Assembly: GCF_000234095.1 (NCBI RefSeq)
Contig: NZ_JH376797.1
Span: 136,493 to 200,492, forward strand
Length of the DNA: 64,000 bases
Origin: Centipeda infelix ATCC 43532
Lineage (GTDB): Bacteria > Bacillota > Negativicutes > Selenomonadales > Selenomonadaceae
Direction of reading: 5' to 3'
In this document: one piece after another, positions 8,908 through 11,103 of the stretch
Position numbering within the stretch: position 1 is the first letter of the stretch
How the letters are laid out: each line of letters starts with the position of its first letter
The notes under the pieces: generated by a model
The model's input: only the letters and a program-made list of their open reading frames with translations
Databases searched by the model: none
What the model was told of the DNA's origin: nothing
Translations under genes and position numbers: made by a program

Positions 8908-8920
8908 AGGCAAAAAATAA

Positions 8921-8962
8921 GGGGCTGTCGCACGAAGTTTTCTAACTGCGTGCAACAGCCCC
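8921..8962. terminator. Strong hairpin after the 7978 gene
   Basis: Arms GGGGCTGTCGCACG and CGTGCAACAGCCCC pair almost perfectly around a 14-base loop. The run after it is only weakly T-rich. Its arms resemble those of the hairpins at 48-88 and 46920-46956. Confidence 0.6.
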
Positions 8963-8990: not shown

Positions 8991-9237
8991 AGCGCCCCTT
9001 CCACCGCTTGCGCGGTCCCCCTCCCCCGTGTCGCACGGGGGAGGCTAGGATTATGGCATCTTAGCTTCCCCCGTCGCAACGGGGGAGCGGTCAACGTCAT
9101 CCAATCACACGTCGCTAACGCTCGTGTTCTTGGGTCGTTTTCCCATACGACCTGTTTCCCGATCAGCTACCCCCTTTGGGCTTGCTTCTCGGACAGGTCA
9201 GTAAGTGGCGAGCGCAGCGAGTCGATAGGGGCGTTTA
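8991..9237. repeat. GC-rich nested palindromic repeat, copy B
   Basis: The 342 bases between the gene ending at 8907 and the one ending at 9250 hold no credible gene. They contain stacked palindromes at 9003-9017, 9019-9046 and 9067-9087, joined by a TTAGCTTCCCCC block. A tail at 9201-9233 carries AAGTGGCGAGC and GATAGGGGCG. The palindromes and tail match the element inside the gene at 9250-11103. About 110 extra bases (9091-9200) separate them here. Confidence 0.75.
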
Positions 9238-9249
9238 TGCAACAGTCCC

Positions 9250-11103
9250 TTATTTTTTTGTCTGTTCATGCACCTGTCGTCCTGCGCCTGCGCCGTCGAT
9301 GGCGACGGCGACACCGGTCTCGGTGAAGGTTTTCATGTCGTTTACGACGTGGAGAGCAGCGTGTAGGATGTCGATGCCGAAGATGCCGGCGATGCCGGCG
9401 GTCAATTCCGTGTCGATGGTGAGCATATCGGGGAGAACATGGAGGAGATGGGGAGTGAGGGCGGGGGAGTTTGCTTCTGTCTTGTGTGCGAGACGATCTG
9501 TCCGTGCATCGCCGGGGAGGATGAGACTGCCGCCCACCGCCGCACCGTGCAGGGCATCTGTGAGCGCATCGGTGATGGCGGCACTCGCCTTGTGTTCATC
9601 TGTGCCGAGGATAAGGATCGGGGAGCTGCGGGCGAGACGGTATGCAGCTGCGTATGCGTCCTCGCTGTCGTGTGAGGTGAGGATGTGGACGGGGATGCCG
9701 CGTGTATCCGTCAGGGCTGAGAGGATGCGCACGAGAACTTCGGGAAGTGCTTCGCTCTCTGTGATCAGGAGCAGTGCCGCCTGTGTGTTCAGAGGAGGAC
9801 GCTCGCAGTGCATCACGCCCGCGAGCCGTACGGCAATCCGCTCAAGATAGCCGAGGCTGTGGATGGGCTTTGCGAGGTTATCGAGGCGGTATTGACAGGC
9901 GGACATAGAGGATTGGTTGGGAGGGGGAAGACGCAGTGACCCCACCGCCGCTTTGCGATTCCACTCCCCCTCTGTGACGGGGGCGGCTTTTAATAACGCC
10001 ATATTAGCTTCCCCCGCTTGCGGGGGAAGTGGCGAGCAAAGCGCGCCGATAAGGGGGCGGTGGATCGCCTCCTCTGGTGAAGTATCTATTGTTTCCCAGA
10101 CCTTTAGCATCTGCCCAAGCGTACGAAGCACAATCGACGAGCCTGCTGCTTCGCTTAGGCGTATATCGAGGCGGAGGATCGGCGTAGGTCCGAGGTGGTG
10201 CAGCGCGTGCGGATGCGAGTGTTCTGTCAGCGATGCGTGCGAGGCGAGGAGATAATGCACGCAGTTCGGCGCAAGTGCGTGTGCTACGAGTGCCGCAGAT
10301 GTGGTATTTGCCCCATCGAGAATGACGAGCATCCGCCGTGCAGCCGCCCCGAGAATGAGCCCTGCAATGCAGCCGAGCTCAAATCCTCCGACCTTTGCGA
10401 GCACGTCCAGACCGTCATGCGGATCGGGGCGGTTGACATCGAGGGTGCGGCGGACGATTTCAACCTTATGCGCGAGACGCGCGTCGGAGATATTCGCGCC
10501 GCGTCCCGTGACCTCCTCGGGGGGCAGTCCGAGGAATGCCGCGACCATCGCCGCACTCGATGTTGTGTTGGAAATGCCCATCTCACCGGGCAGGATGCAG
10601 CGGTCACCACGATTGGCACAGTCATTTGCGATTGCGATGCCCGTTTCAATGGACTGGATTGCCTGTGCGCGTGTCATGGCAGGTCCTTTGGTCATGTTTG
10701 CCGTTCCGCGTGCAATGCTGTGGTGTAGAAGTCCGTGGATGTCTGTGTGTTCCGTATTCACGCCAAGATCGGCAACGATAAGGTTTGCGTTTGCATAGTT
10801 TGCGGCGGCGTTCGCTGCACCGCCGCGTGCGATGAGGTAGTTGCACATCATGTTCAGCGTGGTCTCGGGCGGGTAGGCACTGACGCTCTCGGCGGCGACA
10901 CCGTGATCGGCGCAGGAGATGACAACGCTCGTCTGTGGGGGAGCGGGGTGGCGTTCGCCCGTGATACTGATATAGCGGAAAAGTACATCGTTCAGCCGCC
11001 CAAAGTCCACGCCGTCCTGTGACGTCATAGCCCTATCGATCTCGGCAGAAAGATCTGTGACGGGAATTGTGATCTTAGAAATTGTGCGTTCAAGAAGATT
11101 CAT
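9250..11103 (-). CDS. CobT-family tandem protein, ArsA-ArsB-like fusion
   Basis: The 617 residues hold two CobT-related modules. Module 1 (about 1-345) has the CobT core (SCADHGVAAESVSAYP, GEMGISNTTSSAA, RLSEAAGSS with the catalytic-type Glu) but lacks the usual N-terminal TKPPGSLG motif. Module 2 (400-617) has that motif as LAKPIHSLGYLERIAVRLAG and a CobT-like last helix (NDMKTFTETGV), but Ala replaces the catalytic Glu. CobT attaches nicotinate mononucleotide ribose phosphate to the lower-ligand base of cobamides. In Sporomusa, also Negativicutes, the CobT homologues ArsA and ArsB act as a heterodimer that accepts phenolics. Here both halves are in one frame, joined by about 53 residues coded by a palindromic repeat. 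The start overlaps the tex stop (ATGA). Confidence 0.82.
   Translation of the reverse strand: MNLLERTISKITIPVTDLSAEIDRAMTSQDGVDFGRLNDVLFRYISITGERHPAPPQTSVVISCADHGVAAESVSAYPPETTLNMMCNYLIARGGAANAAANYANANLIVADLGVNTEHTDIHGLLHHSIARGTANMTKGPAMTRAQAIQSIETGIAIANDCANRGDRCILPGEMGISNTTSSAAMVAAFLGLPPEEVTGRGANISDARLAHKVEIVRRTLDVNRPDPHDGLDVLAKVGGFELGCIAGLILGAAARRMLVILDGANTTSAALVAHALAPNCVHYLLASHASLTEHSHPHALHHLGPTPILRLDIRLSEAAGSSIVLRTLGQMLKVWETIDTSPEEAIHRPLIGALCSPLPPQAGEANMALLKAAPVTEGEWNRKAAVGSLRLPPPNQSSMSACQYRLDNLAKPIHSLGYLERIAVRLAGVMHCERPPLNTQAALLLITESEALPEVLVRILSALTDTRGIPVHILTSHDSEDAYAAAYRLARSSPILILGTDEHKASAAITDALTDALHGAAVGGSLILPGDARTDRLAHKTEANSPALTPHLLHVLPDMLTIDTELTAGIAGIFGIDILHAALHVVNDMKTFTETGVAVAIDGAGAGRQVHEQTKK
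9911..10068. repeat. Palindromic repeat, copy C, inside a coding region
   Basis: Palindromes CCCCCTCTGTGACGGGGG (9964-9982 region) and CTTCCCCCGCTTGCGGGGG (10010-10028 region) are separated by a TTAATAACGCCATATTAG linker, and a GTGGCGAGC...CGATAAGGGGGCG tail follows. This is the order seen in copy B at 9019-9233. It is read without a stop as residues about 346-398 of the CobT-family protein, with the low-complexity look of translated palindrome. Confidence 0.75.

Follow-up and report, generated by a model that had tools for sequence, protein, structure and literature searches.

A palindromic repeat read in frame in the linker of an older arsA-arsB gene fusion of Centipeda and Selenomonas

In the window, the 64,000-nt stretch of the Centipeda infelix ATCC 43532 genome analyzed here, one gene joins two enzyme modules through a linker that carries a palindromic repeat also found elsewhere in the genome. 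This raises the question of whether the repeat created the gene by joining two reading frames, as the initial annotation had proposed, or whether it entered the linker of a gene that was already fused.

ArsA and ArsB together prepare phenolic bases for vitamin B12-type cofactors. In the 617-aa product of this gene residues 1-334 match Sporomusa ovata ArsA (4hdk_A, E=4.3e-99) and the region from residue 400 onwards matches ArsB (4hdk_B, E=2.1e-14), with only the N- and C-terminal pieces of the latter being recognizable by sequence. The AlphaFold model can be superimposed on ArsA as seen in crystal structures of ArsAB, with a TM-score of 0.94 by target length. From these sequence matches and the superposition we identify the protein as a predicted fusion of ArsA to a shortened ArsB (Table 1), with phenol/p-cresol base activation for cobamides as its predicted activity. 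Its earlier description as a CobT-type fusion holds at the Pfam level (PF02277), but the parts are more exactly ArsA and a shortened ArsB. The ArsB module spans 218 aa, compared with the 350 aa of its S. ovata counterpart.

Table 1. Coordinates in the window of the fused arsAB gene, its parts and the adjacent repeats
Feature	Position	Strand	Basis
arsAB, fused ArsA-ArsB, 617 aa	9250..11103	-	ORF; 4hdk_A E 4e-99; 4hdk_B E 2e-14; fold match
ArsA module, residues 1-345	10069..11103	-	PF02277 E 1.1e-95; 4hdk_A
Inter-module linker, residues 346-399, predicted disordered	9907..10068	-	pLDDT; alignment of relatives
Full-length palindromic element, forward relative to gene, in frame, residues 350-388	9940..10056	-	HMM, covariance model, BLAST
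ArsB module, shortened, residues 400-617	9253..9906	-	4hdk_B N-/C-terminal pieces; PF02277 N-terminal motif
Larger part of intergenic element copy, downstream of arsAB (approximate)	8994..9086	-	element matches
Second, nested repeat in a hairpin of the intergenic copy	9087..9202		boundary read against intact copies
Remaining end of intergenic element copy (approximate)	9203..9232	-	element matches
Outer inverted-repeat arm of intergenic cassette	8912..8932		pair I1, 90% complementary
Opposite outer arm, overlapping arsAB last codons and stop	9238..9258		pair I1; ORF end

The linker element is 117 bp long, i.e. 39 codons in frame. An HMM built from six other copies, with the linker copy left out, recovers it with 74.5 bits (E=2.3e-23), and by BLAST there are partial matches at 48 places in the genome, of which the best shows 79% identity over 114 bp. 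A covariance model, whose training set included this copy, places it seventh in the genome at 98.7 bits, and the RNA folding of the linker beats that of 200 out of 200 shuffles (z -3.7). Together these results set the in-frame linker repeat far beyond chance and confirm that a palindromic repeat lies in frame between two enzyme modules. The extent first given for it, 9911-10068 or about 53 residues, is that of the whole linker, the exact element being 9940-10056. The consensus of seven copies comprises four hairpins and is closed by complementary ends, GCCCCT and AGGGGC, which pair in six of the seven aligned copies, the remaining one being cut short; element length ranges from 117 to 122 bp. 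A search of Rfam returned no family for the element, only a sub-threshold chance match nearby, and a literature search found no description of this repeat in Selenomonas, nor of a fused arsAB there.

Genome-wide searches bore out the repeat's presence elsewhere: the window's genome holds about 77 copies, complete or partial (77 distinct HMM matches, 10 of them near full length), and gives 100 covariance-model matches with both strands counted. The copy count is probably too low because assembly breaks or masked stretches fall at element copies in genome G000, where the copies at L042, L045, L055 and L057 adjoin runs of N. Eight of 13 other genomes of the genus have from 22 to at least 59 covariance-model matches each (both strands), and the other five (G002, G003, G004, G012 and G013) have 1-5 model matches each. 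At the family level 12 of 23 genomes have some matches, though weaker ones, and among 23 more distant genomes 22 have none.

The copy noted outside genes at 9.0 kb is real and belongs to the same family as the linker element, though it is interrupted by a nested segment of about 116 bp. The nested segment belongs to a second repeat, about 116-130 bp long (AGCGGTCAACC...GGTCAGTAA), which lies within hairpins of the first element at several places in the genome, namely 9087-9202 in the window and L040, L043, L053, L058 and L060-L062. The outer arm of the intergenic cassette on the arsAB side provides the final Lys codons and the stop codon of that gene. At several loci (L039, L203-L208 and L224) a short arm upstream of a copy and a terminator-like hairpin downstream of it carry the same variant sequence, and arm and hairpin share at least 14 nt in 16 of 99 copies versus 3 of 99 mismatched pairs. 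The linker of G005 (L009) seems to contain this larger cassette, with upstream arm and downstream terminator-like hairpin, in frame.

Insertion of the repeat over the arsA stop codon, joining two separate genes, would fit its position exactly between the modules and its being open in frame, as well as the arrangement given in the literature for Negativicutes, in which arsAB is defined as two separate, tandem cobT-like genes (PMC6461909). However, a single open frame of at least 600 codons is present at the locus in all 13 other same-genus genomes and in 21 of 23 same-family genomes, and in the alignment of relatives the linker outside the genus is unrelated sequence (e.g. SALFFHEVMPPAAPPLSDKTFDFYLRTLPKLSKRAM). 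Even within the genus the HMM detected no element in the linkers of G003, G004, G009, G010 and G013, five species in which the gene is likewise fused. The fusion is thus older than the repeat and no stop codon needed removal, so that the proposals that the repeat had removed the stop of the first gene and had made the fusion gene both fall away; as the cause of the fusion the repeat is rejected, this origin being extremely improbable. The order of events, with the fusion first and the tether invaded later, is the reverse of the tempting story.

The linker varies from 165 to 318 nt, yet in all 18 sequences compared (14 of them from the genus) its length is a multiple of three and it is stop-free, which argues for translation as one chain; from this conservation we infer that ArsA and ArsB are made as a single polypeptide. 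Alternatively, two chains might be produced from one mRNA, with ArsB starting at an internal ATG (9906) and the linker being effectively intergenic, a possibility consistent with the common presence of Met at the start of the ArsB module and with the two-chain nature of the known enzyme (4hdk). This alternative is very unlikely given the open frame kept across such different linker lengths, the lack by inspection of an evident ribosome-binding site before the ATG at 9906 and the absence of the Met in some orthologs. In the model of the single chain pLDDT falls below 50 only at residues 348-357 and 360-389 and in the last six residues, the two longer of these stretches coinciding with the element-encoded residues 350-388. 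The linker is predicted to be a disordered tether, and to have been one already before the repeat.

The element or a remnant of it is found in the arsAB linker of nine related species, always in frame. By HMM it is forward in G000, G006, G001, G005, G008 and G007 (a weak remnant in the last, E=0.0024) and reverse in G002, G011 and G012. The nine element-carrying species cluster in the protein tree (92/97), and in the DNA tree G000 and G002 are sisters (99.4/99). Since the full-length elements of these two sisters point in opposite directions, the pattern calls for no fewer than two events, whether insertions or inversions, a count that is a minimum as the DNA tree of arsAB leaves deep nodes unresolved. 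G000 and G006 have the flank and element-specific substitutions in common, by which their element looks like one insertion. The species further differ in the frame and strand of the element that is read as linker. Orientation and similarity suggest that insertion took place as a discrete event. From one close relative to another a copy may be present or absent in an orthologous spacer, but such spacers differ in their entirety and no target duplication is readable; in the pair G008/G001 the spacers are too diverged for exact insertion boundaries and give no clean empty site. Mobilization of the RAYT/IS200 type was considered and rejected, a search for the Y1 transposase (PF01797) having returned no match in the copy-rich G005, G008 and G011.

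At least one open frame is present in 92 of 99 full element copies, with open frames spread over all six frames and averaging 1.90 per copy, versus 1.89 in dinucleotide shuffles. As the two means are equal, the repeat itself is not adapted for coding, and a conserved coding peptide within it is rejected; the scarcity of stops in it is a side effect of its composition. To survey the element's occurrence in other genes, about 180 matches with flanking sequence, from 10 of 14 genomes and from the arsAB loci of every genome, were screened for ORFs that run across the element and put through a codon-model test on either flank, and the candidates were judged by inspection. The survey is nearly complete for the window's genome and is elsewhere a sample biased to well-preserved copies. 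Among these matches no real gene other than arsAB was found to contain the element, the other sampled copies lying outside genes. Inspection placed the spanning ORFs at L169, L172, L194, L152 and L244 between real genes (one such position being flanked by a secA-like and a prfB-like gene) or as antisense shadow ORFs, and those at L036, L043, L232, L236 and L238 look like antisense shadows. At L194 in G006 the element copy (2030-2149) runs across the end of a methyltransferase-like ORF (3' end at 2094), to which it appears to give its stop codon.

We consider it highly probable that an old fusion with a disordered, length-tolerant linker was later invaded by a mobile palindrome, which has been neutrally tolerated in frame. 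Fusion of arsA and arsB would have given rise to a two-module enzyme with such a linker, and copies of an abundant MITE/REP-like element would have landed in it in the ancestry of the nine oral Selenomonas/Centipeda species, either at least once per orientation or once with a later inversion. An open in-frame copy could persist there because the element, being GC-rich, contains few stop codons whichever frame is read, and because the linker offers no structure that an insertion could disrupt; the retained copy would then decay through substitution and in-frame deletion. The repeat would be read as linker peptide, with an effect on the enzyme that is probably neutral.

The presence of the element in one linker of nine species and in no other gene of the sample could hint at more than neutrality. 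The arsAB linker might be a privileged landing site that time and again captures a mobile palindrome, or flips it, in frame; across the genus the selfish repeat would then go on providing this one enzyme with new linker sequence, and perhaps with an mRNA hairpin that can be switched, which we regard as unlikely. Alternatively, the linker repeat could be functional, with its mRNA hairpins or peptide tuning expression or module spacing and selection keeping or flipping the element. Its recurrence in nine species in both orientations and its strong RNA folding (z -3.7) would agree with this, but copies decay to short remnants in the G007, G010-like and G012 linkers, the frames and strands read differ among species, and five species of the genus have no element in the linker, so that such a function is distinctly unlikely.

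The locus provides a comparative case in a Negativicute of a selfish repeat apparently turned protein sequence, for which species from either side of the event are available, as are both orientations. The case is real and well-defined but of a kind already known, a mobile palindrome being tolerated in frame within a disordered linker; what is unusual is its recurrence at one linker in both orientations. The findings also suggest that the fused arsAB of Selenomonadaceae could escape surveys in which arsAB is taken to mean a pair of adjacent cobT genes (PMC6461909), and phenolyl-cobamide capacity in this family may be under-predicted.

Sequence similarity links both modules to ArsAB of S. ovata (PDB 4hdk), and for the ArsA module the fold agrees as well. 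The differences are that the two separate chains there appear to be a single one here, that ArsB is cut to 218 aa, and that the linker is repeat-derived. The Rickettsia palindromic elements (RPEs) lie in frame in many genes unrelated to one another, and the peptide that they encode is conserved (PMC10969869, PMC3767692). Like them, the present element is a palindromic repeat in the range of 100-150 bp with many copies (117-122 bp; about 77 copies, counting partial ones), located in frame within a gene at a site without fixed structure (PMC3767692, PMC10969869). The likeness to Rickettsia drawn initially stands to the extent that a genomic palindrome is read in frame as a linker; it does not extend to many genes, as the sample of about 180 matches contained no second gene with an in-frame copy, nor to a conserved peptide, as the element here lacks coding adaptation and both strands and several frames are used. 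On account of these two differences the element is not filed as an RPE, the comparison being one of features and not of sequence, though at the single arsAB site it would be RPE-like in action. MITE/REP-type repeats are occasionally found inside genes, in stretches that encode flexible parts of the protein (PMC3733652, PMC10969869), and the element resembles them in being short, high-copy, hairpin-rich and mostly intergenic, with complementary ends and presence or absence between relatives; as in MITEs, it is a short non-coding element with terminal inverted repeats. It differs from them in that no parent transposon, target duplication or correlation with Y1 transposase genes was seen, from typical REPs in its greater length of about 120 bp, and from RAYT-associated REPs in that the three copy-rich genomes searched gave no PF01797 match. 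With these distinctions, the element fits the broad class of MITE/REP-like repeats.
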